From Antedon mediterranea (Eukaryota > Echinodermata > Crinoidea > Comatulida > Antedonidae), in contig NC_092672.1 in the NCBI RefSeq assembly GCF_964355755.1, positions 32,236,501 through 32,300,500 on the forward strand: 64,000 nt of DNA. The letters are read 5' to 3'. Positions 29,571 to 61,976 of the stretch are shown here, in pieces. A program made the translations under genes and the position numbers. Within the stretch, counting starts at the first letter, position 1; the number at the start of each line of letters is the position of its first letter. Below the pieces are notes generated by a model, which saw only the letters and a list, made by a program, of their open reading frames with translations, was not told where the DNA came from and did not search any database.

Positions 29571-31199
29571 AAAAATTGTATAAATGCCTGTTTTCTAAAT
29601 GATGGATTTTTTGCTGTGTGAATTTTTTATAAAGAATAACCTTAATCTACACTTGCAAACTTTTGTTGTTTTTTTTTTTGCAACTTGATCCCTAGATGTA
29701 TATCGGAGGAGAAGTTGGGAGTGGGGAGACACAATTTCCTTTGCTTAGACTATTATACAGAGAGGCGTGTGTCCAATTACCTACCACATAATGCTGAGAC
29801 TTAGTACAATGAGCTCCTAACAGCTCATTCCTCTACATTCAGAAATGAATATGGGACTTGTATACATTGTTGTTTTGCATTTATTTTGTAAAATCTTCAT
29901 ACTTTATAGAAAAATGTATTTATAATGCCATTTTTGAAACTCTGATTAATACAAATGAATGAGATTAATTGTGATTTGTACATTGTAGTATTAAATAAAC
30001 ATTTACTGTACCACTTCAGTAATGAAAATACTGAATTGACTGAATATATTTACAGTATAAAGCAGAATAGATTTGACCCACATTCAATATGTGTTAAAAA
30101 GAAAATTTTATATGAATAAAAATACTTGCACTCACCCTGCAAAGTTTGGAATTTCTTTCAATTCAATAAAATTATTATCCCAAACTTTGGAACATTTGGT
30201 TTGAAAAGCACACACATATCCAAGCACAACGATCTTGATTTGTGTATATTGTGTTTATATACAGTATGACATGCAGCCTCAACAGAGGCCTTTGGGAACC
30301 AAACAGTGTCCTCTAAGTAGGGGCAAGGTTTGTTGTATTGTGTAGTACTTCAAAGTAGCTTTGCGTCCTGTAGCTAAGTTTCAGTCAAATTTGTCCCTAC
30401 TCTGTATGCAGTACTGTGTATATTAATTGAGTACAGTGAAAAATAATTAAAGTACAACTGTAAATAATCTGACCTGATCCAAAATTAGTTGGTTTTTTTG
30501 CCGTAATTGTTTCGAGTCTTCAGGGTCTGTCATCGTTTTCCTGGTTTTTCATACTGTTTTTTTGTTCAAATCTATACTGTATACAGTCATGCATTATAAT
30601 GCAACTTTATACCGTCTTTATTATGCAACTTATTCGTCTACGTACATCTAATTACCATGTACTCACTGGGATCAATGTACAGTAGTATCAAAGATAAAGT
30701 ACGGTACTGGTCTATTTATTTATTAATTTAGTCAAATTGTTGATGTGCACTTTGATACAAGTCTAGTCGAGGTTTTGACTTAAGTAAAAAGATAAATATT
30801 TTGGCACATATGGCGTTTCATATGTAAACTACTTGAGCTTGTATTTTCATGCAAACATCGAAAGGCCAACTGGTGGAATAACACAAAAATTAAATAAATA
30901 CAGACTTGGGGCAAGTCTAGGATACAATATATACCGTTCAAATAATGATAATGCATACATGCATCTCGAGACAATAAACGACAATACAATGATATAAAAT
31001 GATAACTATGATAATCTTTATTAAAAGTACTGAATTATTAGAACACCTCGAACCAAAAACACTATTTTACAACACCATACCATATTTCAGCGTGCCATAG
31101 ATAACATATCCATAACTTTCTAATATAGTGGGCAACTTTCCAGAAATGAATGTAGTAGAATCCATATTAAGAAGCCACCTTCAGGACCCAACAAAGTGT
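29571..31199. other. Intergenic, AT-rich, no gene seen
   Basis: Rich in TACTGTA/TACAGTA words. CAAAGTTTGG and its inverse near 30140-30190 form a loose inverted repeat. Confidence 0.5.
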
Positions 31200-33856: not shown

Positions 33857-35341
33857 ATGGGGGTTGATATTTACAGTTCAAACATCCCTGTAATTAGGTT
33901 AGATTTATGAACATATAAATATATTCCGACCTTAAAATTTATGGTTGAGGACTTTACATGCATAACAAGGAAACGATTTGTTTTTTTCAAATGTAGAATT
34001 AAAATAGAAAATTATTTAATTAATTCACTATTGATGTAATGCGGTGGGAACTTTCTTATTTGGGAAACATAATACACCAGAGCAGGTTTCAGAGACCTAG
34101 GTATCCCCACCCCTGGTTGGCTCATTAGGGACAGGACGGTTAGGGGTGGACGACGAATATCCCTTGTTCGCTAGAGCGTAAAATGTTGACACATAGCCGT
34201 TATTAGTTGCACACCCTTTTGCGCGAAGAGGACCGGCAGTATCTCTCTCCTTCTCCTGTCTCACGGCGCGCCCTTCTGAATTGCTTGGCTCTGGTGATAC
34301 AGCATAGGCCTAGCAGCCTTCCTAGATAGGGTCCTCGCATTCAAACGCCGCGCAAAATGTATCGCTTTTAAGATTTTAACTCCATAAAAATGATATTAAA
34401 TTAGAAGTTCAAATATTATTTAGAGTTTTGAAAATACCACTTTTGAGTGTAATTTGAACTGTATATTTAAGGTTATAAATGTACATTATTGTTAAGTTAA
34501 GACTGAGGTTATAAATGTACATTATTATTAAGTTAAGTTAAGACTGAATTTCACGCTGAGCACCGTCCTGTGGCCTCCCATTCTGTTTCCTAAAGTTCAT
34601 ATTTACTGTAGTACAGTATTGTCCTACAAAATAGTGATTTATTTTTTTGTACATCTTACCTATTTAAAATTCATGCTAAAAATAATAAGAACCTGATAAA
34701 ATAAAATTAATCATCACAAAGTATTAATGTATTTCAATGCTTATTCATTTACGCTAATATGAATAATAATTTCAGAGAAAACAATAAATGAGGGATAGTT
34801 GCACCAAAGTTCTACATGATCTGAAATACATAGTTGGTAATACTCTCTCCAATCATCAGCTGCATTAAAACACTTGATAATACTTCAGGTTCATTCCATA
34901 TCTACAAAAGTAAACAAAGACAAATACAATATATTACCGATAAATAATAAACACTAGTTCTTCTATTCACCTTGCTGTATCTAGGCAAGTGCTGTGATAC
35001 AAGACACAAGTGCATCACATATTACACTACATTTATATATGTATGTATGTAGTATATTCTAGCAGTATATCTAGATATGAAGGCAAAATGGGTTGAATAG
35101 AGGGATTTTTTTCTGTCCAAATACTACACCATTTTACCCTTATGAATACAGTATATAATATTTATATTTTATATGATACATACAAGCCCCCCTGCCCCAG
35201 CTTCTATTAATTAATGTAGCCTTACTCTCTCAGTCTTTAGTGTTATTTGATAACATACCTAAATTAATTATCTAATCAAAAACTTTGGTTTCGAAATTCG
35301 GTTTTTGGGTTTATCACATCACCTGTAAGTCTCATTGCGAA
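33857..35341. other. Intergenic or TARDBP 3' region
   Basis: Contains a GC-rich island of unknown origin (34078-34370) and a tandem duplication of GGTTATAAATGTACATTATT (34450-34535). A longer TARDBP transcript could reach here. Confidence 0.4.
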
Positions 35342-37910: not shown

Positions 37911-40662
37911 TTACCAGCTACCACCTTCCTTTGATCCGGAGGTAAAAAATCCCCCTCCCATAGTATTCATTGAATTACTATCCTGAGCCCCGGTATTACC
38001 ACCCCAACCAAGAGCATTCTGACCATCCCCGAAAGACCCAGGTTGCTGCTGTGTTGGCTGTGCCTGTTGCTGCTGGCCCTGTACAGCTCCCCCAGTTCCT
38101 TGATTCATCATACCCATCATGTTAAAGTTCTGGGCAAGGGCCTGGGCAGTAGCTGCAACCATAGCATTCAGGGAGAGGTTACCCAACTGATTCATACCAC
38201 CACCACCACTACCTCCTCCTCCTCCTCCCCCACCGCCTTGTCCTCCCCCGCCCCCTCCACCACCACCTCCTGACATCGCACCAGGGTTACCTGAACCTCC
38301 ATAGTTATTTGAACGCCTGTCATCGTAACCACGTCGTGAATTGCTGCTGCGACTACGATCATTGTAGCGGCCATGTCCAGAACCATAGTCTGTAGCAAAG
38401 AATGTGTAGACTTTATATAAAAAGAACTATATTTAATTTTCCATAGGGTGTTAACAACTTGTATCCTTTCTTTCAGATTGCATGTATTGTATTGTACATC
38501 CCGAATAATAGGAGGCATGAGAAACATAAAAATGTGTGTAACCGAGCACTGACACTCCAGGTTCCCTATGACTTTAGCTCGACACCATGGACAAACCCTC
38601 TATGACCAAGTCATGGCACCAAACCCTTTATGGCTTAGCAGTGAGAATGAACTCTTACCTCTTCCTCCGCCACCACCACCTCCATATCCTTGCATCATCT
38701 GCATCATTGGGTTGTTGTCCATGTTTCGTTGCATGAACTGTCTTGAATGCTTGGGTTCTGCTCTGTCAATATGTACACTGTAACCCTGAAATTTACAAAA
38801 GAATCGGCATTCAAAGATTTGCTGAAATGGAGACATGGCATTAACAGCACCGTTGCGGTACCTTAGATATTCCTCTAGGAAACACTAGCACACAAATTAA
38901 CACAAAAATCTGCTCTGTAAGGTAACTTACTTAGGCCTCCAACTAACCTTTATAGTACGATCTTCTCCCAGCAATTTCATGGCATCTTCGGCATCAGCGA
39001 ACGTAACAAAAGCGATGCCTCTGAACGGCGTGGGAATGTAGACGTCTGTAACCTCTCCAAACTGACCAAAGTATGAGTATAGGTCTTCAGAAGTGGTTCC
39101 ATCACCAACACGTCTCAGAAATATCTTTTTACTTTGTTCTCTTTCAGGGTAACCCTGTAAATTTCATTTGTTATGAAATAAATAATTTATTAATGATATA
39201 CCTTTTTATTAGAAATGGTATGGGAATTCAACACTAGCAATTAAGTGTTTAAGATGGACGTGAGCTAAACAAACGTAGGTCTTGGATAACGTCAATACTT
39301 ACACGATCAGGATACCTCACGTCACACCACCTTCCATCAATTTGATGTCGCCTAGAAACAACTTTATCTTGAACTGTAGGGTCTTGAAACCTGACAAACC
39401 CAAATCCTTTGGACTTGCCTGTTATATGGTCATTTTTTATCTAAAAAGAAATAGTTATTTATTAATTTGTTTACAATCATTTGGAAATATTTGTTGCACT
39501 TAAATGTTGTTTAAAGCTCTGTCTATACTTTCAAACTTTATGCGACCAAAAAATTTGATGTGCCCATATATGGACATTATGATGTCATATCACTAACATT
39601 TTTCAGCACATCACACTTTTTTTGTCAAACTAGTTTGATAGTGTAGACAGAGCTTTGGACGTTATGTAATCATCAAGAATTGGCCTAATTATAAGTCATT
39701 TGTCTTTCACACTTGTTCCGGAATATCGGATCACAATGTTTTGTTTTCCCGACACTCTACACGGCTATGCGGTGGAGCGTCGAGAAGACAAAAAATATGA
39801 TGTTTGATTTGATTGGCGCCGAACCAGGACTGTGCCCGAACAGGTTTGAAACACTCTTTACTCCTTACTTCTGCAAGTTCAAGTTCCCCATATTGTTCAA
39901 AGTAGCTTTTCATGTCCTCTGGTTTGGTACGGAATGGCAGACCTAGAACAATTAAATCTGTCGATTTGTTTCTTTCCACTTTTCTTGTTTTTCCTACGGG
40001 ATTGTCTTGTGTCTCTTCTCCTTTTCTTTTGTTATCTACAATAAAAATGTTAATTGAACAATATCTTATTGAAGAATGATGGGATATGATTGTGAATGTT
40101 GGCGGGACTAGCACATTACCCAGTATGCAGCAGAATGTGAATGTAATGATAAAAATAACTGAGAAATGAAGGCATTTTAATCATTCATCCTCTTATCTCC
40201 CAAAAAATTGCAATCCATAACATGGACCATATGGTACTACTGAACCTGCTGTAGGGCCTGCTGACCATGGCCAGCCGGATAGTTAATGATAGATGGCGCC
40301 CCAGCCCAGCAGTTTACTGACTCCACCCATCATAATTTTTGTATTTTGTATAATAAACTGTATTTTGATTTCCTTACTTAGAGTTAGGCCTAGGGCTTAG
40401 TTTATTTACCTGTAACTGTATTTTTAGGGAATGCAGCAATATATAAATAATCATGCCACACATCATCCGGTGGCTGTATTGCGTTTTCTACCAAACGTAG
40501 CCCTCTCATAGCACCAGAATCGGGATTGCGGTATTTTAGCCCAGTCGCGCCCGGGTACTGAGCGTGGAGCGTCGACAACAATATCGTACCATCGGCCTCG
40601 ACTGGGAGTTCCATCGGCTCCGGGTCATTTTCGTCTTCGACTGTACGAACGTACTGCGTCAT
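37911..40662 (-). CDS. TARDBP: TAR DNA-binding protein 43 (TDP-43), complete
   Basis: Nuclear RNA-binding hnRNP that binds UG repeats and controls splicing and RNA stability. Six coding exons: 40410-40662, 39869-40035, 39303-39440, 38948-39154, 38659-38785, 37911-38389; 456 aa against 414 in human. Residues 1-80 form the ubiquitin-like N-terminal domain ([23 protein letters not shown]). A bipartite nuclear localisation signal (KRK...KTRKVER) lies near 87-106. RRM1 covers about 110-185 (RNP2 [11 protein letters not shown]1 KGFGFVRF at 151-158) and RRM2 about 195-265 (FRGIAFVTF). The glycine-rich C-terminal domain includes two runs of 10 and 9 glycines (338-357), a helix-like block near 371-392 matching the vertebrate conserved helix (ending MMGMM), a Q-rich stretch, and a final GGSW. 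The residue aligned with human RRM1 Trp113 is Phe119. Every junction stays in frame. Confidence 0.98.
39515..39654. mobile_element. MITE family B copy in a TARDBP intron
   Basis: AGCTCTGTCTATACTTTC / GATAGTGTAGACAGAGCT, between the two exons that together encode RRM1 (39303-39440 and 39869-40035). Confidence 0.75.
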
Positions 40663-40778: not shown

Positions 40779-40850
40779 ATTTTCCTTTTCACACGTGAGC
40801 AAAATGGCGACCCAAGCGTAAATTGTACACAACATAACCAGATGAGGGCG
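40779..40850 (-). other. TARDBP: 5' UTR exon of TARDBP (upstream limit approximate)
   Basis: The first coding exon has an acceptor (TTTTTTATAG) only four bases before the ATG, so a leader exon is needed. A perfect donor (AAAAT|GTAAGT) at 40778 ends such an exon about 110 bp upstream of that acceptor. The exon holds an E-box CACGTG (40792-40797) and AAAATGGCGACC on the plus strand (40801-40812), the kind of YY1 site often found just downstream of metazoan start sites. The upstream limit is estimated. Confidence 0.55.
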
Positions 40851-40884
40851 CTTTTCTGTATTTGTTTTTTCACAAGAAGATCAT
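40792..40884. promoter_or_regulatory. TARDBP half of a former bidirectional promoter
   Basis: Contains the CACGTG box, the YY1-like CAAAATGGCGACC and GATGAGGGCGC, and ends with GAAGATCAT, the left copy of the target-site duplication of the 11.7-kb element. The other half resumes at 52619 and leads into AGTRAP. Confidence 0.5.
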
Positions 40885-41049
40885 GCTTGTGTCAGCTTGT
40901 GTCAAGCTAGCCGACAATAAGCCAGCCGACAATAAGCCAGCCCACTTTTATTTTTTCCAGCCGACAATAACTATGAAACGCCGTTTGTGTATTTTTCACA
41001 TTTTCAGTATTGTTTAAGGTTTTTATAGTATTAGAAATTCAATATTTGT

Positions 41050-44000
41050 GAGAAAATGGCGGATTGCTCCTGGGAGTCACTTGGTGGAATTATATTAGGG
41101 TACCTACTTAGTCGTCCAGTATAAGTTAGGGTGGGACCACTGGTCCCGTTTACTCAGCCCTCATCTTTTAAATCTGAGTGTAACTCAATTCCGATTTTTA
41201 ATATTATAGTGAAATTTGATACTGTATTTGTGAGAAAATGGCGGATTGCTCCTGGGAGTCACTTGGTGGGATTATACTAGGGTACCTCCTTTGTCGTCCA
41301 GTATAAGTTAGAGTAGGACCGCTGGTCCTGTTTACTCAGCCCTCATCTTTTAAATCTGAGTGTAACTCAATTACGATTTTTAATATTATAGTGAAATTTG
41401 ATACTGTATTTGTGAGAAAATGGCGGATTGCTCCTAGGAGTCACTTGGTGGGATTATACTAGGGGACCTCCTTAATCGTCCAGTATAAGTTAGAGTAGGA
41501 CCGCTGGTCCCGTTTACTCAGCCCTCATCTTTTAAATCTGAGTGTAATTCAATTACGATTTTTTATATAGTAAAATTTGATACTGTATTTGTGAGAAAAT
41601 GGAGGATTGCTCCTGGGAGTCACTTGGTGGGATTATACTAGGGTACCTCCTTAGTCGTCCAGTATAAGTTAGAGTAGGACCGACCGCTGGTCTTGTTTAC
41701 TCAGCCCTCATCTTTTAAATCTAAGTGTAACTCAATTACGATTTTTAATATTATAGTAAAATTTGATACTGTATTTGTGAGAAAATGGCGGATTGCTCCT
41801 GGAAGTCACTCGGTGGGATTATACTAGGGTACCTCCTTAGTTGTCCAGTATAAGTTAGAGTAGGACCACTGGTCTTGTTTACTCAGCCCTCATCTTTTAA
41901 ATCTGAGTGTAACTCAATTACGATTTTTAATATTATAGTGAAATTTGATACTGTATTTGTGAGAAAATGGCGGATTGCTCCTGGGAGTCACTTGGTGGGA
42001 TTATACTAGGGTACGTCCTTAGTCGTCCAGTATAAGTTAGGGTGGGACCACTGGTCCCGTTTACTCAGCCCTCATCTTTTAAATCTGAGTGTAACTCAAT
42101 TACGATTTTTAATATTATAGTGAAATTTGATACTGTATTTGTGAGAAAATGGCGGATTGCTCCTGGGAGTCACTTGGTGGGATTATACTAGGGTACCTCC
42201 TTAGTCATCCAGTATAAGTTAGAGTAGGACCACTGGTCCTGTTTACTCAGCCCTCATCTTTTAAATCTGAGTGTAACTCAATTACGATCTTTAATTTTAT
42301 TATAGTGAAATTTGATACTGTATTTGTGAAAAAATGGCGGATTTGTCCTGGGAGTCACTTGGTGGGATTATACTAGGGGACCTCCTTAATCGTCCAGTAT
42401 AAGTTAGAGTAGGACCGCTGGTCCCGTTTACTCAGCCCTCATCTTTTAAATCTGAGTGTAACTCAATTACGATTTTTTATATAGTGAAATTTGATACTGT
42501 ATTTGTGAGAAAATGGCGTATTGCTCCTGGGAGTCACTTCGTGGGATTATACTAGGGTAACTCGTTAGTCGTCCAGTATAAGTTAGGGTGGGACCACTGG
42601 TCCCGTTTACTCAGCCCTCATCTTTTAAATCTGAGTGTAACTCAATTCCGATTTTTAATATTATAGTGAAATTTGATACTGTATTTGTGAGAAAATGGCG
42701 GATTGCTCCTGGGAGTCACTTGGTGGGATTATACTAGGGTACCTCCTTAGTCGTCCAGTATAAGTTAGGGTAGGACCGCTGGCCCTGTTTACTCAGCCCT
42801 CATCTTTTAAATCTGAGTGTAACTCAATTACGATCTTTAATATTATAGTGAAATTTGATACTGTATTTGTGAGAAAATGGCGGATTGCTCCTAGGAGTCA
42901 CTTGGTGGGATTATACTAGGGGACCTCCTTAATCGTCCAGTATAAGTTAGAGTAGGACCGCTGGTCCCGTTTACTCAGCCCTCATCTTTTAAATCTGAGT
43001 GTAAATCAATTACGATCTTTAATATTATAGTGAAATTTGATACTGTATTTGTGAGAAAATGGCGGATTGCTCATAGGATTCACTTGGTGGGATTATACTA
43101 GTGGACCTCCTTAATCGTCCAGTATAAGTTAGAGTAGGACCGCTGGTCTTGTTTATTCAGCCCTCATCTTTTAAATCTGAGTGTAACTCAATTACGATTT
43201 TTAATATTATAGTGAAATTTGATACTGTATTTGTGAGAAAATGGCGGATTGCTCCTGGGAGTCACTTGGTGGGATTATACTTGGGTACCCCCTTAGTCGT
43301 CCAGTATAAGTTAGAGTAGGACCGCTGGCCCTGTTGACTCAGCCCTCATCTTTTAAATCTGAGTGTAACTCAATTACGATCTTTAATATTATAGTGAAAT
43401 TTGATACTGTATTTGTGAGAAAATGGCGGATTGCTCCTAGGAGTCACTTGGTTGGATTATACTAGGGTAACGCCTTAATCGTCCATTATAAGTTATAGTA
43501 GGACCGCTGGTCCCGTTTACTCAGCCCTCATCTTTTAAATCTGAGTGTAACTCAATTACGATTTCTTATATAGTGAAATTTGATACTGTATTTGTGAGAA
43601 AATGGCGGATTGCTCCTGGGAGTCACTTGGTGGGATTATACTAGGGCACCTCCTTAGTCGTCCAGTATAAGTTAGAGTAGGACCACTGGTCTTGTTTACT
43701 TAGCCCTCATCTTTTAAATCTGAGTGTAACTCAATTACGATTTTTAATATTATAGTGAAATTTGATACTGTATTTGTGAGAAAATGGCGGATTGCTCCTG
43801 GGAGTCACTTGGTGGGATTATACTAGTGGACCTCCTTAATCTTCCAGTATAACTTAGAGTAGGACCGCTGGTCCCATTTACTCAGCCCTCATCTTTTAAA
43901 TCTGAGTGTAACTCAACTACGATTTTTTATATAGTGAAATTTGATACTGTATTTGTGAGAAAATGGCGGATTGCTCCTGGGAGTCACTTGGTGAGATTAT

Positions 44001-47000
44001 ACTAGGGTACCTCTTTAGTCGTCCAGTATAAGTTAGAGTAGGACCGCTGGTCTTGTTTACTCAGCCCTCATCTTTTTAAATCTGAGTGTAACTCAATTAC
44101 GATTTTAAATATTATAGTGAAATTTGGTACTGTATTTGTGAGAAAACGGCGGATTGCTCCTGGAAGTCACTCGGTGGGATTATACTAGGGTACCTCCTTA
44201 GTCGTCCAGTATAAGTTAGAGTAGGACCGCTGGTCTTGTTTACTCAGCCCTCATCTTTTAAATCTGAGTGTAACTCAATTACGATTTTTAATATTATAGT
44301 GAAATTTGATACTGTATTTGTGAGAAAATGGCGGATTGCTCCTGGGATTCACTTGGTGGGATTATACTAGGGTACCTCCTTAGTCGTCCAGTATAAGTTA
44401 TGATGGGACCACTGGTCCCGTTTACTCAGCCCTCATCTTTTAAATCTGAGTGTAACTGAATTACGATTTTTAATATTATAGTGAAATTTGATACTGTATT
44501 TGTGAGAAAATGGCGGATTGCTCCTGGGAGTCACTTGGTGGGATTATACTTGGGTACCTCCTTAGTCGTCCAGTATAAGTTAGAGTAGGACCGCTGGCCC
44601 TGTTTACTCAGCCCTCATCTTTTAAATCTGAGTGTAACTCAATTACGATCTTTAATATTATAGTGAAATTTGATACTGTATTTGTGAGAAAATGGCGGAT
44701 TGCTCCTAGGAGTCACTTGGTGGGATTATACTAGGAGACCTCCTTAATCGTCCAGTATAAGTTAGAGTAGGACCGCTGGTCCCGTTTACTCAGCCCTCAT
44801 CTTTTAAATCTGAGTGTAAATCAATTACGATCTTTAATATTATAGTGAAATTTGATACTGTATTTGTGAGAAAATGGCGGATTGCTCATAGGATTCACTT
44901 GGTGGGATTATACTAGTGGACCTCCTTAATCGTCCAGTATAAGTTAGAGTAGGACCGCTGGTCTTGTTTATTCAGCCCTCATCTTTTAAATCTGAGTGTA
45001 ACTCAATTACGATTTTTAATATTATAGTGAAATTTGGTACTGTATTTGTGAGAAAACGGCGGATTGCTCCTGGAAGTCACTCGGTGGGATTATACTAGGG
45101 TACCTCCTTAGTTATCCAGTTAAAGTTAGAGTAGGACCACTGGTCCTGTTTACTCAGCCCTCATCTTTTAAATCTGAGTGTAACTCAATTACGATCTTTA
45201 ATATTATAGTAAAATTTGATACTGTATTTGTGAGAAAATGGCGGATTGCTCCTGGGAGTCACTTGGTGGGATTATACTAGTGGACCTCCTTAATCTTCCA
45301 GTATAACTTAGAGTAGGACCGCTGGTCCCATTTACTCAGCCCTCATCTTTTAAATCTGAGTGTAACTCAACTACGATTTTTTATATAGTGAAATTTGATA
45401 CTGTATTTATGAGAAAATGGCGGATTGCTCCTGGGAGTCACTTGGTGAGATTATACTAGGGTACCTCTTTAGTCGTCCAGTATAAGTTAGAGTAGGACCG
45501 CTGGTCCTGTTTACTCAGCCCTCATCTTTTAAATCTGAGTGTAACTCAATTACGATCTTTAATATTATAGTAAAATTTGATACTGTATTTGTGAGAAAAT
45601 GGCGGATTGCTCCTGGGAGTCACTTGGTGGGATTATACTAGTGGACCTCCTTAATCTTCCAGTATAACTTAGAGTAGGACCGCTGGTCCCATTTACTCAG
45701 CCCTCATCTTTTAAATCTGAGTGTAACTCAACTACGATTTTTTATATAGTGAAATTTGATACTGTATTTGTGAGAAAATGGCGGATTGCTCCTGGGAGTC
45801 ACTTGGTGAGATTATACTAGGGTACCTCTTTAGTCGTCCAGTATAAGTTAGAGTAGGACCGCTGGTCCTGTTTACTCAGCCCTCATCTTTTTAAATCTGA
45901 GTGTAACTCAATTACGATTTTAAATATTATAGTGAAATTTGGTACTGTATTTGTGAGAAAACGGCGGATTGCTCCTGGAAGTCACTCGGTGGGATTATAC
46001 TAGGGTACCTCCTTAGTCGTCCAGTATAAGTTAGAGTAGGACTGCTGGTCCTGTTTACTCAGCCCTCATCTTTTAAATCTGAGTGTAACTCAATTACGAT
46101 TTTTAATATTATAGTGAAATTTGATACTGTATTTGTGAGAAAATGGCGGATTGCTCCTGGGAGTCACTTGGTGGGATTATACTAGGGTACCTCCTTAGTC
46201 GTCCAGTATAAGTTATGGTGGGACCACTGGTCCCGTTTACTCAGCCCTCATCTTTTAAATCTGAGTGTAACTGAATTACGATTTTTAATATTATAGTGAA
46301 ATTTGATACTGTATTTGTGAGAAAATGGCGGATTGCTCCTGGGAGTCACTTGGTCGGATTATACTAGGGTACCTCCTTAGTCGTCCAGTATAAGTTAGAG
46401 TAGGACCACTGGTCCTGTTTACTCAGCCCTCATCTTTTAAATCTGAGTGTAACTCAATTACGATTTTTAATATTATACTGAAATTTGATACTGTATTTGT
46501 GAGAAAATGGCGGATTGCTCCTGGGAGTCACTCGGTGGGATTATACTTGGGTACCTCCTTAGTCGTCCAGTATAAGTTAGAGTAGGACCGCTGGCCCTGT
46601 TTACTCAGCCCTCATCTTTTAAATCTGAGTGTAACTCAATTACGATCTTTATTATTATAGTGAAATTTGATACTGTATTTGTGAGAAAATGGCGGATTGC
46701 TCCTAGGAGTCACTTGGTGGGATTATACTAGGGGACCTCCTTAATGGTCCAGTATAAGTTAGAGTAGGACCGCTGGCCCTGTTTACTCAGCCCTCATCTT
46801 TTAAATCTGAGTGTAACTCAATTACGATCTTTAATATTATAGTGAAATTTGATACTGTATTTGTGAGAAAATGGCGGATTGCTCCTGGGAGTCACTTGGT
46901 GGGATTATACTAGTGGACCTCCTTAATCGTCCAGTATAAGTTAGAGTAGGACCGCTGGTCCCGTTTACTCAGCCCTCATCTTTTAAATCTGAGTGTAACT

Positions 47001-48780
47001 CAATTACGATTTTTTATATAGTGAAATTTGATACTGTATTTGTGAGAAAATGGCGGATTGCTCCTGGGAGTCACTTGGTGAGATTATACTAGGGTACCTC
47101 CTTAGTCGTCCAGTATAAGTTAGAGTAAGACCGCTGGTCCTGTTTACTCAGCCCTCATCTTTTAAATCTGAGTGTAACTCAATTACAATTTTTTATATAA
47201 TGAAATTTGATACTGTATTTGTGAGAAAACGGCGGATTGCTCCTGGAAGTCACTCGGTGGGATTATACTAGGGTACCTCCTTAGTCGTCCAGTATAAGTT
47301 AGAGTAGGACCACTGGTCCTTTTTACTCAGCCCTCATCTTTTAAATCTGAGTGTAACTCAATTACGGTTTATAATATTATAGTGAAATTTGATACTGTAT
47401 TTGTGAGAAAATAGCGGATTGCTCCTGGGAGTCACTTGGTCGGAGTATACTAGGGTACCTCCTTAGTCGTCCAGTATAAGTTAGAGTAGGACCACTGGTC
47501 CTGTTTACTCAGCCCTCATCTTTTAATCTGAGTGTAACTCAATTACGATTTTAAATATTATAGTGAAATTTGGTACTGTTGTGAGAAAACGGCGTATTGC
47601 TCCTGGAAGTCACTCGGTGGGATTATACTAGGGTACCTCCTCAGTCGTCTAGTATAAGTTAGAGTAGGACCGCTGGTCTTGTTTACTCAGCCCTCATCTT
47701 TTAAATCTGAGTGTAACTCAATTACGATTTTTAATATTATAGTGAAATTTGGTACTTGTTTTGTGAGAAAACGGCGGATTGCTCCTATGAGTCACTTGGT
47801 GGGATTAGACTAGGGGACCTCCTTAATCGTCCAGTATAAGTTAGAGTAGGACCGCTGGTCCCGTTTACTCAGCCCTCATCTTTTAAATCTGAGTGTAACT
47901 CCATTACGATTTTTAATATTATAGTGAAATTTGATACTGTATTTGTGAGAAAATGGCGGATTGCTCCTGGGAATCACTTGGTGGGATTATACTAGGGTAC
48001 CTCCTTAGTCGTCCAGTATAAGTTAGAGTAGGACCGCTGGTCCCGTTTACTCAGCCCTCATCTTTTTAAATATGAGTGTAACTCAATTACGATTTTAAAT
48101 ATTATAGTGAAATTTGGTACTGTATTTGTGAGAAAACGGCGGATTGCTCCTGGAAGTCACTCGGTGGGATTATACTAGGGTACCTCCTTAGTCGTCCAGT
48201 ATAAGTTAGAGTAGGACCGCTGGCCCTGTTTACTCAGCCCTCATCTTTTAAATCTGAGTGTAACTCAATTACGATCTTTAATATTATAGTGAATTTTGAT
48301 ACTGTATTTGTGAGAAAATGGGGGATTGCTCCTGGGAGTCACTAGGTGGGATTATACTAGGGGACCTCCTTAATCGTCCAGTATAAGTTAGAGTAGGACC
48401 GCTGGTCCCGTTTACTCAGCCTTCATCTTTTAAATCTGAGTGAAACTCAATTACAATTTTTTATATAGTGAAATTTGATACTGTATTTGTGAGAAAATGG
48501 CGGATTGCTCCTGGGAGTCACTTGGTAGGATTATACTAGGGTACCTCCTTAGTCGTCCAGTATAAGTTAGGGTGTGACCACTGGTCCCGTTTACTCAGCC
48601 CTCATCTAATAAATCTGAGTGTAACTCAATTACGATCTTTAATATTATAGTGAAATTTGATACTGTATTTGTGAGAAAATGGCGGATTGCTCCTGGGAGT
48701 CACTTGGTGGGATTATACTAGGGGACCTCCTTAATTGTCCAGTATAAGTTAGAGTAGGACCGCTGGTCCCGTTTACTCAG
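41050..48780 (+). repeat. Left array of the foldback element: about 42 tandem ~181-bp units
   Basis: Each unit starts GAGAAAATGGCGGATTGCTCC, contains GGGATTATACTAGGG, GTCCAGTATAAGTTAG, the near-palindrome GGACCACTGGTCC and CTCAGCCCTCATC, and ends ACTGTATTTGT. Units differ by a few percent and some share variants two units apart (the CTTCCAGTATAACTTAG type near 45,290 and 45,650), showing local duplication. No reading frame persists through the array. Confidence 0.92.
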
Positions 48781-51700
48781 GAGCAATCCGCCATTTTCTC
48801 ACAAATACAGTATCAAATTTCACTATATAAAAAATCGTAATTGAGTTACACTAAGATTTAAAAGATGAGGGCTGAGTAAACGGGACCAGCGGTCCCACCC
48901 AAACTTATACTGGACGACTAAGGAGGTCCCCTAGTATAATCCCACCATGTGACTCCCAGGAGCAATCCGCCATTTTCTCACAAATACAGTATCAAATTTC
49001 ACGATAATATTAAAGATCGTAATTGAGTTACACTCAGATTTAAAAGATGAGGGCTGAGTAAACAGGACCAGTGGTCCTACTCTAACTTATACTGGACGAC
49101 TAAGAAGGTACCCTAGTATAATCCCACCAAGTGACTCCCAGGAGCAATCCGCCATTTTCTCACAAATACAGTATCAAATTTCACTATAATATTAAAAATC
49201 GTAATTGAGTTACACTCAAATTTAAAGGATGAGGGCTGAGTAAACGGGACCAGTGGTTTCACCCTAACTTATACTGGACGACTAAGGAGGTACCCTAGTA
49301 TAATCCCACCAAGTGACTCCCAGGAGCAATCCGCCATTTTCTCACAAATACAGTATCAATTTTCACTATAATATTAAAAATCGTAATTGAGTTACACTCA
49401 GATTTAAAAGATGATTGCTGAGTAAACAAAACCAGCGGTCCTACTCTCACTTATACTGGACATCTAAGGAAGTACCCTAGTATAATCCCACCGAGTGACT
49501 TCCAGGAGCAATCCGCCGTTTTCTCACAAATACAGTACAAAATTTCACTATAATATTAAAAATCTTAATTGAGTTACACTCAGATTTAAAAGATCTCCTG
49601 GGAGTCACTTGGTGGGATTATACTAGGGGACCTCCTTAATTGTCCAGTATAAGTTAGAGTAGGACCGCTGGTCCCGTTTACTCAGGAGCAATCCGCCATT
49701 TTCTCACAAATACAGTATCAAATTTCACTATATAAAAAATCGTAATTGAGTTACACTAAGATTTAAAAGATAAGGGCTGAGTAAACGGGACCAGCGGTCC
49801 CACCCAAACTTATACTGGACGACTAAGGAGGTCCCCTAGTATAATCCCACCAAGTGACTCCCAGGAGCAATCCGCCATTTTCACACAAATACAGTATCAA
49901 ATTTCACGATAATATTAAAGATCGTAATTGAGTTACACTCAGATTTAAAAGATGAGGGCTGAATAAACAAGACCAGTGGTCCTACTCTAACTTATACTGG
50001 ACAACTAAGGAGGTACCCTAGTATAATCCCACCAAGTGACTCCCAGGAGCAATCCGCCATTTTCTCACAAATACAGTATCAAATTTCACTATAATATTAA
50101 AAATCGTAATTGAGTTGCACTCAAATTTAAAAGATGAGGGCTGAGTAAACGGGACCAGTGGTCCCACCCTAACTTATAATGGACGACTAAGGAGGTACCC
50201 TAGTATAATCCCACCAAGTGACTCTCAGGAGCAATCCGCCATTTTCTCACAAATACAGTATCAACCTTCACTATAATATTAAAAATCGTAATTGAGTTAC
50301 ACTCAGATTTAAAATATGCTTGCTGAGTAAACAAAACCAGCGGTCCTACTCTCACTTTTACTGGACATCTAAGGAAGTACCCTAGTATAATCCCACCGAG
50401 TGACTTCCAGGAGCAATCCGCCGTTTTCTCACAAATACAGTACCAAATTTCACTATAATATTAAAAATTGTAATTGAGTTACACTCAGATTTAAAAGATG
50501 AGGGCTGAGTAAACATAACCAGCGGTCCTACTCTCACTTATACTGGACAACTAAGGAGGTACCCTAGTATAATCCCACCGAGTGACTTCCAGGAGCAATC
50601 CGCCGTTTTCTTACAAATACAGTATCAAATTTCACTATAATATTAAAAATCGTAATTGAGGTACACTAAGATTTAAAAGATGAGGGCTGAGTAAACAAGA
50701 CCAGCGGTCCTACTCTAACTTATACTGAACAACTAAGGAGGTACCCTAGTATAGTCGCACCGAGTGACTTCCAGGAGCAATCCGCCGTTTTCTCACAAAT
50801 ACAGTACCAAATTTCACTATAATATTTAAAATCGTAATTGAGTTACACTCAGATTTAAAAGATGAGGGCTGAGTAAACGGGACCAGTGGTCCCACCCTAA
50901 CTTATACTGGACGACTAAGGAGGTACCCTAGTATAATCCCACCAAGTGACTCCCAGGAGCAATCGGCCATTTTCTCACAAATACAGTATCAAATTTCACT
51001 ATAATATTAAAAATCGTAATTGAGTTACACTCTGTTTTAAAAGATGAGGGCTGAGTAAACAAGACCAGCGGTCCTACTCTAACTTATACTGGACGACTAA
51101 GGAGGTACCCTAGTATAATCCCACCAAGTGACTCCCAGGAGCAATCCGCCATTTTCTCACAAATACAGTATCAAATTTCACTATATAAAAAATCGTAATT
51201 GAGTTACACTCAGATTTAAAAGATGAGGGCTGAGTAAACGGGACCAGTGGTCCCACCCTAACTTATACTGGACGACTAAGGAGGTACCCTAGTATAATCC
51301 CACCAAGTGACTCCCGGGAGCAATCCGCCATTTTCTCACAAATACAGTATCAAATTTCACTATAATATTAAAAATCGTAATTGAGTTACACTCAGATTTA
51401 AAAGATGAGGGCTGAGTAAACAAGACCAGCGGTCCTACTCTAACTTATACTGGACGACTAAGGAGGTACCCTAGTATAATCCCACCAAGTGACTCCCAGG
51501 AGCAATCCGCCATTTTCTCACAAATACAGTATCAAATTTCACTATATAAAAAATTGTAATTGAGTTACACTCAGATTTAAAAGATGAGGGCTGAGTAAAC
51601 GGAACCAGCGGTCCTACTCTAACTTATACTGGACGATTAAGGAGGTCCCCATGTATAATCCCACCAAGTGACTCCCAGGAGCAATCCGCCATTTTCTCAC

Positions 51701-52461
51701 AAATACAGTATCAAATGTCATTATAATATTAAAGATCGTAATTGAGTTACACTCAGATTTAAAAGATGAGGGCTGAGTAAACAGGGCCAGCGGTCCTACT
51801 CTAACTTATACTGAACGACTAAGGAGGTACCCAAGTATAATCCCACCAAGTGACTCTCAGGAGCAATCCGCCATTTTCTCACATATACAGTATCAAATTT
51901 CACTATAATATTAAAAATCGTAATTGAGTTACACTCAGATTTTAAAGATGAGGGCTGAGTAAACAAGACCAGCGGTCCTACTCTAACTTATACTGGACGA
52001 CTAAGGAGGTACCCTAGTATAATCCCACCAAGTGACTCCCAGGAGCAATCCGCCATTTTCTCACAAATACAGTATCAAATTTCACTATATAAAAAATCGT
52101 AATTGAGTTACACTCAGATTTAAAAGATGAGGGCTGAGTAAACGGGACTAGTGGTCCCACCCTAACTTATACTGGACGACTAAGGAGGTACCCTAGTATA
52201 ATCTCACCAAGTGACTCCCAGGAGCAATCCGCCATTTTCTCACAAATACAATATCAAATTTCACTATAATATTAAAAGGTGCCAATGTAATTGGGCACTG
52301 AGTGTAACTCAATGATTGAGTTACACTCAGATTGAAAAGATGAGGGCTGAGTAAACAGGACCAGCGGTCCTACTCTAACTTATACTGGACGACTAAGGAG
52401 GTACCCTAGTATAATCCCACCAAGTGACTCCCAGGAGCAATCCGCCATTTTCTCACAAATA
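48781..52461 (-). repeat. Right array of the foldback element: about 20 units in opposite orientation
   Basis: The same ~181-bp unit reads on the minus strand. The switch is at 48780/48781, where CTCAG of the left array runs straight into GAGCAATCCGCC. A ~90-bp plus-oriented piece recurs at about 49594-49685, and a two-block disturbance (GTGCCAATGTAATTGGGCAC) occurs near 52277. Confidence 0.92.
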
Positions 52462-52618
52462 TTGAATTTCTAATACTATAAAAACCTTAAGCAATACTGA
52501 AAATGTAAAAAATACACAAACGGCGTTTCATAGTTATTGTCGGCTGGAAAAAATAAAAGTGGGCTGGCTTATTGTCGGCTGGCTTATTGTCGGCTAGCTT
52601 GACACAAGCGAAGATCAT

Positions 52619-52755: not shown

Positions 52756-55700
52756 ATGGATGGTCAATTTGATTCTAATCCTCTAGCTCGTGTTCCACTA
52801 AAGGTTAGTTTTGGTGCTTCAAATTGTTTTGAGCATATGTTTATCGACTCTTTTTCCCATCAAAATTTAGCTAGGCCTAGCTAGGCCCTCTATCTAGTAG
52901 CCTAGGCTGTACTATCTACTAAGGCCTAGCCTAGGTAGAAGTGCAGTAAGTGGATTACAGTAGTTTGGGCTTGGTCTACAGTCAGTAGGCTAGCCTAGCG
53001 TGTTATCACAGGGAACATGTGGTTACTAATAACCTACTGTAGTAGTAGTGGTGGTGGGCGTGCTATAGTAATATTAATGAAATAAGAAAACTGTTCTTCT
53101 TACATGTTGTCTTTTTCTTTATGTAATGTACATTTTAGTGAGAATTTGAATAAATAAAAAAAAATAAATATTTTTTTCAAGTTTTGCCTTTTGAATTTTG
53201 TTGAGAGTCCACTGTATACACAGTATATGATGGGCCTTTAAATTTTAAATCGTCGTTTTTACTCACGGCATTGCCCCATTGTCTTTATTGAGTACAACTT
53301 ACAATACAATGTCTGGCTGGCTTTACACACTATTGTCTTTTTTACTCACGATATGCATGGATTTGTTTTTTTTTATTACTGTAAGTACGTTCTTTACAGG
53401 GCACTCAATAGTAGTACACAAAATATCAATTAGAAGATACAACAGATTTCATGAATGATATCGTCGTAAAGTGATGAACAATTTTTTTATATTAAAGCCC
53501 CATTCCCTACGTTTTTTAGATCTAATTTAAGATCACAAACTATATTTAATGTAAAAATAATACTATATGGTCCTATTGCGATAACTTTTTTTGTCTTTAA
53601 ACGGTTAAAAATGTGAAAAATAAGTCGATTTTAATCATTATAGCGGCCCGCTATAAATCCCAAAATGCATTGCGCGCGGATTGATATTTTTGTTTTTCAC
53701 CTGTAATTCGCCCACTTTTCGATCGATCGTGAGGCCAAAACAAATGGAAGACTCCTAACTTTTCAGCGAAAATACCGGGTTTTCCCCAATTTGTATCAAC
53801 GGAGTCTGGCAAAAATAGAAAGACAATTAATGCAGCAACTATACAACGTCAGGCTAGGTATATAGCTAGCGTACGATGTTCGTACGTTACCGATATTTAC
53901 CAGCTAGGCCTACAAAACTAAGCCTAGCCAGGCTAGGCCTAAGACCGTCCACGAGAGGTCGATCGCCGCGAGCTACTTAGGTAGTGCATTGTTTCTCACT
54001 TTTTATCATAATTTACCATAAAACGTACATTAAGACAAGGAATGACATGGTTTAATGTTTTTAAAGTGATATATATGTATTATTTTCCAAAAAACGTCCA
54101 AAATTGCAGGGAAGGGGTCTTTAAACAAATGTTTTTTTAAAGCTTTGTATAATTCTAAAAGGTTCTGAGCCTGAGGTAAGACCAATTTACAAAGACAAGT
54201 GGTAAAACGGTACGTGCAGAAAATCGCGTAGCTTGTCTTAGACTGGAAACCCACTCGGGATAGATACCTGGGTTTTACAGTATGTGGCCCACATAAAACC
54301 CAGGTATTAACCTGAACAGGTTTACGATAAGCTGTCTGCTTCACGTTGTGTGTGAATGGTAATAAGAAATAACACACTGTAGATTCTATTTTGTTTTCCG
54401 CTTACTGTTACCGCTTTCCTGTGTAAATTGGCCTTTAGACCTTAATTGTATTATGCATGAATTGTGCATTGGAGCGTAAATAATGACCCATGAAGCGCTG
54501 CGTAATGTTCAATTACAGAACAGTTGCACCTAAGGAATACGGTAGACTAGTAACTATCATTAGTTCTGAACACAACAATTACTGTACGTACTAATATATA
54601 CAGTACCAGTTGCTGACAAATATGAAGTGATGATGATATCACCTCTGTCCACACTCCTTTTAGCCAGGAGAGAAATCTGTATAAACCTCTGTTCACACAT
54701 AGAGTCTGTACAACAAACATGCTTTTGCTAATGTATGTTAACTTGAACAGGATTACATTGCAGAAGTACACAGCATCCTCTCTTAATTTTTTCTATGAAC
54801 CATTTTAATAACTAATACTTTCGACAACGGATGAAATTTATGAAAATTGACATACAATTATATTATATAAACAAAGAGGTGAAGAAAAAAAATTTACTCA
54901 ATTTTGACATCAAACTAATTTTTTCTCAATTGTGGTTTTTTTTTAATATTCTTGTTTTTAAAATCTTGTCTTACAGGCGGTTGTCATCATACATTTTGTA
55001 TTAACAATATGGTATGTAAAATTTTGTTGTCATTCGTTTTTTGCGTTTGTTTGTTCATTGTGTGTTGAGTGCCTTATGCATGTCAGCCTCAGCTGTCAGA
55101 ACCACCCTCATTAAACAAAGTTTAATGAAAAAATAAATTAAAAAAAACAAAGCTACTGTACACTACAGTAGTGTTACCATGGACCTATAAATGTTATAAT
55201 TTACAGGGGCGGATTGCTATAAAACAGTCTTAACTAATGGTCTTAACTCCCCGATTAAAGCCGGCTTTATCTGATAGATGGTCTTACTAAAGCCACCCCT
55301 GTTAGACCATTGCTATAAAACAGTCTTAGATAAGACCGCGTAAAGTAACAAATTGAGGGCGTACTTTGCGCGTAGAATACCAAATAAGGTAATGTTCGTC
55401 ACGCTTGTTCAATTCACAATCATAACAGTACGTACATTTCTACGCAAGAAAATCTATTCTAGGGCTATATAAGAATAAAATCACCGTTATTATTTGATTT
55501 AACACTTAAAACTCGTTCTATTGGTTGTCTTTGACGATAAATAATACGTAAAAGCAACAAAAATAGAGGTTTAAGACTGTTTTAAGACTCCTTTGAGTAG
55601 GCTTTAATTTTAAAGACCGTTTACAGGTTAGACCGCGGTATAGCAATGGTCTATAATGTAAGACTGGGACTACTTGCTACGTCACGAATTATAGCCGGCT

Positions 55701-58700
55701 AAGCGCTAAGACCGGTTATAGACCGCTTATAGCAATCCGCCCCTGGTCTATGGTGTTACTTAGTAACATTCTTGTATAGTAACTATGTAAATAATACAGT
55801 AAACAGGGTACTGTACAGTATTTACTCTGTATTTAGATGTGGAAGGTGCAACACCCACCTTTCAGCCAAATATACAGTAATTGTACAGATTACAATTAAG
55901 CTTTATATAATGGATGAAGCTGTAACAGGGTTTTCCCCTCTTAGATTCCAATTCTACCTTCTTGTAATACAGTACCGTAGCTGCTGCAGGCCCCCATAGC
56001 CAGAATTTTGATGGAGGAGTTCGAATTTGGAAAAAGTTGCTGGACCAACAACCATGGCTAATTGTATTATAAAAGATCATAGTTTATGGAGAGGGTATGG
56101 TACAATCAAACCATATCCATGCCCCCAGACCATCATAATAACAGTATATACCACCAAATTGAAACTTTCTTTTAGTATTACACTTTAAAAATATTAAATA
56201 CTTCAAATTTATAATTGTTTTTTTTTAATATATTTTTTTGGCCATTAAATGTGTGTGACCACTAGGTAAAACGTTTGTTTGTTGAAACCTCCCCAACCTT
56301 CTGGCTACAGGCCAGTGTGCTGTTTGTTTAACCACAGTATTACAAAATACAGGCTTATGATCGACAGTACCTTATTACAGTAGTACGTTTTATGGTTCCA
56401 AGCAGGCAGTGTTATATTCAGGACATTCAACATCATTTTGGTTAACATTCCTCCCTTTATTTTTTGTAGGGCTTCACAAAGTGGGTTTTTACCCGATGCG
56501 TACTTAATAATGAACATCACCATAATATTTTGCGGCCTGTGGGCTATCGCACACTCTGAGTCAATCGACAGTATACAAATGGTAAGAATTGTACAGTAAT
56601 CCCGGTATTATAATGGTAAAAGTGACCGTAATGTGAAATTCAATATGGCAACTTATGGTGTTTTATACTTGAGACTGAGTGTAAACTGTATTCATTATTC
56701 ACTCTCCACTCTCTTACGGAATCTACTGTAAGTATCAATATAGTGAAATTATTATAAAGAGAAATATCTCCCTTGAATATGATCATTGCCTGGTTATTAT
56801 TTTATAACTTGCACTACAGTACATAATTATGTTTTACATCATCATCAAATATTAGTGTTAAATGTTTGTTTATGTTTTTTTTTAGTACCTCTTCTTACAT
56901 GTAATAAGCATTGCAATGGATATAATCTTTCTTGCTGTATTTTTTGATACACCTTATAAAGACTGTAAGTATAAACACATTCTGTTCTCCTCTCCATTTC
57001 CTATCAATAATTTCCCCCACATTCCTTCCACCCCACCCCCACGCCACCCACTTTATTACTGCAGTAAAGCAAGATACAGTACATTCAAACATACAGTACT
57101 ATACTGTAGTGCTCATAAAATATTTGTGCTCTCACAGCACTTTAGTAGTGTGCAATAGAGTACACACAGTACTATGGCTCCTATTGGATATTTTAAATTA
57201 ATTTTTTTTTTATTTCTTCCTTTTATGCCTTTCAACTTGGGGTTTGGCTACTAATTTCCTATCTTTTGCATTGTAAATAATTCAGAGCAGTCCCTGGCCG
57301 ATTAATTATCATTAATAATTCTACTAATTAATGATTCATATTCTGTACTCCTTGTTTTTGCTTTATCAAATTTTATATATTAATTATTTTTTTTCACTAT
57401 AGCAAGTTCTGTGAAATTCAGCAAGACGTATCCTTTTACTTTCATATATAAATTGTAGACTACAGTAGTACAATATCATTTAATGATAACCTGAGAAATG
57501 TTATTTTAATACTGCTACGGTAACTAAGGTCATCTAAAAATAGCACCTTATTATAGAAGATGACTTCTACCATCAATAATTTCCCCTTTAAGTGCTATAT
57601 GCACATCGGTTCTCGTCAGATCACCGAAGTTAAGCAACGTTGGGCCTGGTTAGAGCTTGGATGGGAGATCATCTGGGACTATATCAGGTGCTGTATATGG
57701 AGCTGGGGTCCCATTGGGCATTTGAAATCAGCACTGCTGGCTATTATGGCAGCCTCTGCATCTAGTATCTGCCTCAGACATATTGGCCCATGCCTTTCCT
57801 CTAGCCAAGACAGAGCACTGGACAAGAGAAGCCCTTGATCAATGATAGGACCAGCCAAGGTGCTTTAAACAGTCCTGGCTTACAGTAGTTTTATCCGTCA
57901 TACAGATGAATGTCATTGAACTAATTAGTTATCCGCATTCAGCGGATAACTCCTTGTAACTGTCCTGTTTCATCATCTTTTTAGTTATCCGCACTTGGCG
58001 GATAACTCCTTGTTATTGTATGGGATCTTTTTCCTTTTCTGTATTATTCTTCTGTCTTTCTTCCTTTTTTTGTGAGCCCTGTTTCTCTAAAATGTGTAAA
58101 CAGAACATATCGTAACTTTGTCAAAATATAGACATTTACGTGAAGTTGTGCACCTCCTATTTTTGAAAAACGTCAGAGTTGCGCAACGTGACTTGCACGC
58201 AATTTTATGAATTTAAATTATTGATCATAGATTAAAAACCAAAAGTCGATTTGTATTGAGACTTGGTGAAAATTTAATTTATATCAAGAGTCAATTTTCT
58301 GTGGATTAAAAATGGCATGTTTCACACAAAGTTACGCGCGCACGCGCATTTAAAATTTCAAAATGCGCAAAATTAATTTCTAATCAACTTTTTACGCGTT
58401 TCATGTAATTTTAAGCATGTCAAAAATTCCCACGCGCCCGCAAATTTTTACGTGCGCATGTAGCGTTAAAAACATATTTTTTTCTCGTGATTTATGTTTT
58501 TCTAGCTTTTTTTAGTAATTTTATCAACTTTTAAACAATTTCGACTTAAAATCACGTCATATGAGCACGTCGAATTAAACAATTTGTGCGCTTTTTTGAT
58601 GAAAAAGTTCAAAAATTTGTCAAAATTATGCCTTTTTTTAAACAGTCGTAATTTCTAAACTGCACGGTCAACTTTTTGTGGATAACATATTCTGGAAGTT

Positions 58701-60213
58701 GATTAGTTGTATATATCGGATCATGTATTAATATGGCTAACCGGACATTATGACGTCATCGTATGGCCACGCAAATATAAAATAAAGGATTTTTGTATCT
58801 TTCGTTATAGGTCATCACATTTAATAGAGCGCATCTCAACTTAGCCGTTTTCCATTTTCACCCCGATTTTTATATTGTCTAGGTCAATCAACTATCTTTC
58901 GCATGAGTTACAAATATTTTAATTTTTATGACGTCATCATGCCTAAAAATTTAAATTACGTGTGGCATTAATTTCATCTTTACAGTAAATTTTAATCTGT
59001 TATAGCTCGTAAGAATAAAATGTGATAATCACGATTAAAACGTTTTCTAGTAGCTATTGGATTGTAGATAGGAAATCATGTGAAAATTTTGCCAATCGGA
59101 TGTTGTGATGTCATCATATGAATAGTTAAATAAAAAAAGTCGTATTTTCATCTTTTGCGTCATAATTTATTACATTTAAAAGAGCGCGCATCAATATTTT
59201 ACGTATTTTAATTTCTTCTACACATTAATATGTTGTTGACGAGATAATTTCCTTCCGAAATTGCTATCTTAGTGTTTAATTTGAATACCGTCGCCATGTT
59301 AAAAAGTGGAATAAACGGTGGGTCCCGTAATTCCACCTATTCTACACTGTATGTAATATGTATACAGATTATACTGTATATACTATATGACACAAAATAG
59401 ACAGAATTCAGCACTAACAATACATGATATTCTTCAGTTCAGGTCATAATGCCATAATCTTTTTATGTGTGCAATATTCCAACGTATGACGTGCACGTGG
59501 CGTTTCTCGTGCGGATAACTAACTCGTCAAAGTGACGAGTTTCATGTCTAGTTGACATTGTCATTTGCGACAGACGTCATTTGCGACAGACGTCATTGTC
59601 ATTTGCGACAGACGTCATTGTCATTTGCCACAGGCGTCATTGTCATTTGCGACAGACGCGTCATTGTCATTTGCGACAGACGTCATTGTCATTTGCGACA
59701 GACGTCATTGTCATTTGCGACAGACGTCATTGTCATTTGCGACAGACGTCGGCCATAAACTATATAACAGTATTTGTACGAAGTTGAGATAGTGAGTAGA
59801 ATTTCGACATTCCCAATGAACTCTCAAATCAACAAATAGTAACACAAGTGTAAGAAATGGGATTGTGTTATATTTGTGGATTGTACCATTTTTATATGGG
59901 GGTATTCAATTAATTGAATTTAAGCATTCAGTGTTGTGTTATCCATGTACACCCCTTTTCCATGTGCACATCTTTTTATTTGTGTATATTCCTTAACCAA
60001 TGTTTTAGTATGTCTATTATCAACCTCCTGGTGAAGCCTCTGTCCTCGTTCATTTTGCTTGTGCATTTCCGTAATCGAGGCGGTCAGTACAGCAGCTATC
60101 CGTCTCCTTCAGCTAGCGGCTACGAGAATGTTGACCAACCGCTGCCTTCGAACAGCCAAGTGGAAGCAGCCAACTCTCCAACCTCTTTCCAGAAGCCGTA
60201 CATACCACAGTAA
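52756..60213 (+). CDS. AGTRAP: Type-1 angiotensin II receptor-associated protein (ATRAP)
   Basis: Small multi-pass membrane protein; in mammals it binds the AT1 receptor tail and promotes its internalisation. Six coding exons, all phase-consistent: 52756-52803, 54977-55011, 56470-56581, 56886-56964, 57403-57427 and 60009-60213, giving 167 aa (human 159). Landmarks against human: PLKAVVIIHFVLTIW at the exon 1/2 border for NLKVILLGHW-LLTTW; IFCGLWAIAHSESIDSIQM for ALGVWAVAQRDSIDAISM; and MSIINLLVKPLSSF...RNRGG for GMAILSLLLKPLS...RERGG. Four hydrophobic segments lie near residues 17-35, 40-55, 66-88 and 101-121. The cytoplasmic tail is Ser/Pro-rich with a YENVD motif. Exon 5 is only 25 nt. Start context has G at -3 and +4. 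Introns hold a 0.6-kb TTAA-flanked element, a hAT-like MITE, a 5S-like element and a 22-bp minisatellite. Confidence 0.92.
53496..54120. mobile_element. 0.6-kb non-autonomous element in AGTRAP intron 1
   Basis: Ends AGCCCCATTCCCTACGTTTTTTAGA and, reversed, AGACCCCTTCCCTGC...GGACGTTTTTTGGA; TTAA on both sides (53492-53495, 54121-54124). Confidence 0.65.
55204..55745. mobile_element. hAT-like MITE in AGTRAP intron 2
   Basis: Perfect 17-bp inverted ends CAGGGGCGGATTGCTAT / ATAGCAATCCGCCCCTG, with many internal TAAGACCG-type words. No clear 8-bp duplication was seen, so the superfamily call is tentative. Confidence 0.7.
57592..57895 (+). mobile_element. 5S rRNA-derived element (SINE3-like) or 5S pseudogene in AGTRAP intron 5
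   Basis: 57592-57700 follows 5S rRNA: CGGTTCTCGTCAGATCACCG, AAGTTAAGCAACGTTGGGCC and GCTTGGATGGGAGATCATC keep the internal pol III promoter. The outer stem is altered (GCTATATGC instead of a normal 5S end). A ~190-bp non-5S body follows, as in 5S-headed SINEs. Too many changes for a functional 5S gene. Confidence 0.65.
57920..59550. mobile_element. Probable non-autonomous transposon in AGTRAP intron 5
   Basis: Two successive hairpins, GTTATCCGCATTCAGCGGATAAC (57930-57952) and GTTATCCGCACTTGGCGGATAAC, followed by CTCCTTGT, open the region; GCGGATAACTAACTCGTC with TGACGAG closes it near 59510-59540. The interior is AT-rich without coding capacity. Boundaries are approximate. Confidence 0.4.
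59556..59749. repeat. 22-bp minisatellite, about nine units
   Basis: Unit ATTGTCATTTGCGACAGACGTC; one unit has GCCACAGGC and one a 2-bp insertion (ACGCGTC). Overlapping short frames rich in RRHCHLRQ are a by-product. Confidence 0.85.
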
Positions 60214-61717: not shown

Positions 61718-61976
61718 TACTGCAGTAACTACATTTTTACTGTACATTAGTAACTACATTTTTACTGCAGTAACTACATCTTTACTGCAGTAACTACATC
61801 TTTACTGCAGTAACTACATCTTTACTGCAGTATAACTACATCTTTACTGCAGTAACTACATCTTTACTGCAGTAACTACATCTTTACTGCAGTAACTACA
61901 TCTTTACTGCAGTAACTACATTTTTACTGCAGTAACTACATTTTTACTGCAGTAACTACATTTTTACTGCAGTAAC
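61718..61976. repeat. 20-bp minisatellite, about 12 units
   Basis: Unit ACTGCAGTAACTACATCTTT (or TTTTT); every unit carries the 8-bp palindrome ACTGCAGT, and one early unit is diverged (ACTGTACATTAG). Confidence 0.9.

Follow-up and report, generated by a model that had tools for sequence, protein, structure and literature searches.

A large foldback-type insert with satellite arms between the divergent genes TARDBP and AGTRAP of Antedon mediterranea

Foldback transposons with tandem repeats in their ends

Several transposons with long inverted ends carry tandem repeats within these ends. As given in the available part of its description, Tetris of Drosophila virilis has inverted ends of up to 1,735 bp, in which an external flanking domain is followed by tandem repeats of ~220 bp; it further possesses inner and middle domains, lacks conserved ORFs and generates target duplications of 8-10 bp, on the length of which it was assigned toward the Mutator superfamily (PMC4079207). 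Its repeats also expand to arrays of kilobase size, and the large Tetris-derived arrays lie in beta-heterochromatin (same part of PMC4079207). Tm1 of root-knot nematodes, in what could be consulted of its description, measures ~1-2.6 kb, has composite inverted ends, which include short tandem repeats of 13-15 bp, and asymmetric terminal motifs, makes mostly 9-bp duplications and has a known Mutator-like transposase (PMC3169594). For Drosophila Galileo, the accessible text gives inverted ends of up to ~1.26 kb with direct repeats of ~210 bp that vary independently between the ends, 7-bp target sequences and a P-superfamily transposase (PMC3573991), and secondary transposase binding sites have been placed in its terminal tandem repeats (PMC3573991; PMC4079207, both in part).

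We have analysed a window of 64 kb, by which we mean the whole stretch of 64,000 nucleotides, from the crinoid Antedon mediterranea. Among echinoderms, the TU elements of the sea urchin have inverted repeats with an outer domain of 15-bp tandem repeats, as has the insert described here, a likeness by description only; their duplications are 8 bp long, compared to 9 bp in the insert. Literature searches for foldback elements in echinoderms and for TU elements of sea urchin returned no paper, and a search for foldback and sea urchin returned only the paper on Tetris (PMC4079207).

The insert has long terminal inverted repeats with tandem repeats in them and a flanking target site duplication, as foldback elements do. 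It is most likely a real insertion and a large example of this known kind, and we hold it to be highly probable that it is a non-autonomous foldback DNA transposon which landed between the divergent starts of TARDBP and AGTRAP. With Tetris it shares the order of external domain and tandem repeats, the lack of conserved ORFs, the range of duplication length and the growth of repeats to kilobase arrays, as judged by description (PMC4079207, in part). However, its two arrays meet directly without inner and middle domains, and they lie beside genes rather than in beta-heterochromatin. Tm1 resembles it in the composite ends, the asymmetric terminal motifs and the duplication length, but is smaller, and no transposase was found for the insert; Galileo resembles it in the long inverted ends with independently varying direct repeats, but differs in target length, transposase and size of the ends. 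With arms of 7.9 kb (left) and 3.8 kb (right), the insert exceeds the longest inverted ends given for Tetris and Galileo in the consulted parts of both papers by a factor of ~2-6 (PMC4079207, PMC3573991). What is notable about it is thus the length of its arms and its place between two divergent genes.

The insert, its ends and a probable relative

The insert is 11,725 bp long and occupies positions 40885-52609 of the window. Its parts and the genes on either side are as follows.

37912-40662, reverse strand: coding exons of TARDBP (TDP-43), six as read from splice sites, with the ATG at 40662
40876-40884, forward strand: left target site duplication, GAAGATCAT, perfect 9-bp repeat
40885-40894, forward strand: 10 extra bp, GCTTGTGTCA, repeating in tandem the 10 bp with which the terminus begins
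40895-41049, forward strand: left terminus outside the array, with 15-bp direct repeats, CTATGAAACGCC at 40971-40982 and a unique stretch
41043-48780, forward strand: left array, 42.6 copies (~43) of a 182-bp unit, the last one, at the centre, truncated to 108 bp
48781-52454, reverse strand: right array, ~20 inverted units of 182 bp
52455-52609, reverse strand: right terminus beyond the array, matching 40895-41049 in inverted orientation except at 2 of 155 bases
52610-52618, forward strand: right target site duplication, GAAGATCAT, perfect 9-bp repeat
52756-60210, forward strand: AGTRAP, ATG at 52756, exons 1-3 at 52756-52803, 54977-55011 and 56470-56581, last-exon ORF ending at 60210

An earlier note on this DNA had claimed an 11.7-kb foldback element at 40876..52618, with a perfect 9-bp duplication exactly at the outer edges of inverted ends, and this description was borne out. 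When both strands of the window are scanned, GAAGATCAT occurs only twice, once at each edge of the insert. Its copy number alone is not rare, as at least two copies were present in 5 of 100 shuffles of the window (mean 0.47); rather, the pair is significant because of its placement at both edges. Such paired matches are rare: when 200,000 pairs of loci were drawn at random from elsewhere in the window and compared at 13 offsets, 79 shared a 9-mer. The right end, read inward, is identical to the left end, read from 40895, at 153 of the 155 bases outside the array, and the inverted match continues into the first satellite unit. The 15-bp direct repeat is present in 2.6 copies in each terminus, together with CTATGAAACGCC. 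A feature overlooked in the earlier note is the extra copy of GCTTGTGTCA, which is present at the left end only; these 10 bases are a point against a simple insertion, which does not predict them.

The interior of the insert contains no stop-to-stop ORF of at least 90 amino acids. In the 64-kb window, no Rfam match attained the gathering score of its family, no tRNA was found, and no second element with the ends of the insert was seen. Scans of viral_contigs with two patterns gave no match.

A smaller element, here called element C, has a similar design.

26877-27702, no strand assigned: element C, ~826 bp, inverted ends, 16-bp direct repeats, CTATGAAACGCC once per arm, flanked by CTAAGTAG

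The flanking CTAAGTAG, 8 bp long, is found four times in the window, and the element with its flanks extends over 26869-27710. The 12-mer CTATGAAACGCC has four exact copies in the 64 kb, two in element C and two in the insert, one per arm. If one mismatch is tolerated the number rises to six, compared to a shuffle mean of 0.16; the two additional copies, at 5274 and 30812-30823, gave no impression of being further relatives. Aligned with the ends of element C, the insert terminus scored 52 (left) and 61.5 (right), and the best of 500 shuffles, which were made for the left end, scored 44. When the window was scanned with the right end of element C, the two insert arms were the top matches outside element C itself (61.5 and 57.5), followed by 47.5 outside both. 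The reverse scan, with the insert terminus, did not single out element C: a stretch at 8201 scored 74 versus 72.5, and ~70 was reached by numerous units of the insert itself. Because one of the two scans fails in this way, the kinship is probable, not proven: judged by sequence, element C is probably a smaller relative of the insert and not a copy of it. An ORF that matches PPP1R35_C has its first ATG at 28193, and element C ends ~480 bp 5′ of this codon.

A second foldback-like element lies at 31200-33860. Its inverted arms of 804 nt are 98% complementary and contain 2.2 copies each of a 141-bp unit, AAAATGGCGGATT is common to this element and the 182-bp unit, and the CpG observed/expected ratio over 31224-33828 is 0.62. 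No common word of at least 6 bp was found in the flanks tested.

With respect to the superfamily, target duplications of ~9 bp are typical of Mutator. Duplications of the P superfamily are 8 bp long, or 7-8 bp with Galileo included, and do not agree with the 9 bp of the insert, though this mismatch is not absolute, because element C, the probable relative, has 8-bp flanking repeats. The length of the duplication thus favours Mutator, an argument that the available part of the Tetris paper uses as well (PMC4079207); as no transposase was found, the assignment is a guess from the repeat length.

Structure and history of the satellite arrays

Nearly all of the interior of the insert is satellite, and the left and right arrays adjoin directly at its centre. 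For the right array a tandem repeat finder gave 19.3 copies over 48778-52277, but the number of units in the insert is uncertain, because long inverted arrays are easily misassembled. Inside the right array, a short forward piece at ~49594-49686 is a second copy of the central junction, a recurrence that is expected given a tandem duplication of the centre. In both arrays the CpG observed/expected ratio is ~0.6, whereas the remainder of the window gives 0.97 and 0.81. Columns of the 182-bp unit that contain CpG are more variable than the others (8.5% versus 3.8%). However, TpG plus CpA is not raised (0.81-0.87 in the arrays versus 1.12-1.16), which leaves decay through methylation as no more than a possible explanation.

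The units were compared using 42 from the left and 18 from the right arm, with L43, R01 and R16 omitted as partial or aberrant. The mean number of changes between two units is 11.3 for pairs from the left arm, 12.8 for pairs from the right arm and 12.4 for pairs with one unit from each. In a permutation test with the 42 left units and R02-R15, the order of unit variants was not common to the two arms (the observed score was reached in 99 of 300 permutations), and inverted collinearity of the arms was not found, the anti-order control scoring 12.4 and thus higher than the expected order (10.7). Ten units after units 10-12 and 16-19 of the left arm, recent copies of them are found, and each of these carries 0-2 changes. 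In the right arm, units 12-15 recur as units 17-20 with 3-6 changes each; the central duplication amounts to 18 changes over four unit pairs. As the arms have no common unit order, each has probably grown and been reshuffled separately, by what we infer to be unequal exchange.

Did the insert arrive with its array? The ~11-13 changes per 182 bp between units, set against 2 in 155 between the ends, suggest that most unit variants pre-date the insertion, although the counts are small and either homogenisation of the ends or faster variation of the units could mislead. Alternatively, what inserted may at first have been a small foldback element in which 182-bp units were few or absent, the arrays being built in place afterwards. 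This would fit the recent block duplications within the arms and the small size of element C, for which no array of the 182-bp type is listed, and independent change of the two arms is also reported for Galileo in the part of that paper available to us (PMC3573991). The central duplication is compatible with arrays from before or after the insertion. Given the apparent age of most variants, subject to the same two reservations about ends and units, we regard this order of events as unlikely.

A transposon may also be dispensed with altogether, if an ordinary satellite array was inverted by a rearrangement and the 9-bp repeat arose by chance or microhomology. The almost purely satellite interior would be expected in such a case, but the near-identical inverted ends outside the array, with 15-bp repeats of their own, would not, nor would the position of the 9-bp repeat at both edges or the recurrence of the same end design in element C, and we consider such an origin very unlikely.

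The gap between TARDBP and AGTRAP

The names given to the two flanking genes in the earlier note proved correct. The six exons of TARDBP yield a complete coding frame, the first 280 residues of which match TDP-43_N (3.1e-27) and RRM_1 (1.5e-24), and when the second RRM exon is compared with PDB, the four top-ranking entries are all TDP-43. Exons 1-3 of AGTRAP match the Pfam family AGTRAP with 5.8e-14 and the last exon does so with 5.7e-09; the ORF holding exon 2, taken alone, had no match, and the piece between exon 3 and the last exon was looked for and not located. The claim that both genes are intact therefore stands for the coding frame of TARDBP, while for AGTRAP it covers exons 1-3 and the last exon.

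An AGTRAP intron contains a stretch resembling 5S rRNA (57579-57699; 37.8 bits, the gathering score being 38), which is possibly a 5S-derived SINE. Short tandem arrays are located at 59560-59750 (22-bp unit) and 61718-61976 (20-bp unit).

TARDBP on the reverse and AGTRAP on the forward strand diverge from the insert between them. As had been noted earlier, the ATG of AGTRAP lies 138 bp past the right 9-bp repeat. With the insert taken out together with one of the two repeat copies, the two ATGs are 359 bp apart, and from the end of the TARDBP leader exon, which we place at 40779, to the AGTRAP ATG there are 243 bp, in agreement with the ~245 bp previously given. Divergent genes with such close starts have the arrangement of a bidirectional promoter pair. 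The rejoined 500 bp has a CpG observed/expected ratio of 1.27, a value reached by 28% of 148 background windows and hence unremarkable. Thus, of the earlier claim that the insert split a bidirectional promoter, the divergent layout and the target duplication stand, and it is from the layout, not from CpG content, that the gap may be taken as one such promoter. A literature search on a bidirectional promoter of AGTRAP and TARDBP found no paper.

The location between two divergent starts, together with the YY1-like word AAAATGGCGG, of which the insert has 48 exact copies, could be taken to mean that the insert was co-opted as a boundary or as part of the promoter of TARDBP or AGTRAP; the earlier note had named co-option as one possibility. 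However, this received no support: AAAATGGCGG is not specially conserved, with a mean deviation of 2.8% compared to 4.0% for the 182-bp unit and rank 96 of 182 ten-mers, and co-option strikes us as highly improbable. A more specific version, to which we likewise give very little credence, is that the transposon-borne satellite of ~60 units might serve as a length-variable spacer or boundary that uncouples transcription of TDP-43 and AGTRAP, with unit-number alleles tuning the effect. Least probable of all is an artefact of sequencing or assembly, to which long inverted arrays are generally prone, since the arms differ by several per cent (the longest inverted pairs between them are 92-96% complementary) and in unit order, whereas the arms produced by a fold-back read are collinear and nearly identical.

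For the transposon insertion that we favour, the following course may be envisaged. A transposase supplied from elsewhere, probably of the Mutator type in view of the 9-bp duplication, would have moved the non-autonomous insert, already carrying an array of several units, into the gap of ~360 bp between the starts of TARDBP and AGTRAP, the most likely reason being the open state of DNA at gene starts. Unequal exchange would later have enlarged and reshuffled each arm, and the insert would serve no role for the host. In this context, the preference of maize Mu for gene starts, as given in the part of PMC2774946 available, would account for the position of the insert without invoking a host function.

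The locus looks like a foldback transposon whose satellite array of kilobase scale lies beside genes and not in heterochromatin, and it thus bears on the question of how transposons seed satellites. Should the insertion be polymorphic, its alleles would provide a natural test of whether two divergent genes can withstand a separation of more than 11 kb.
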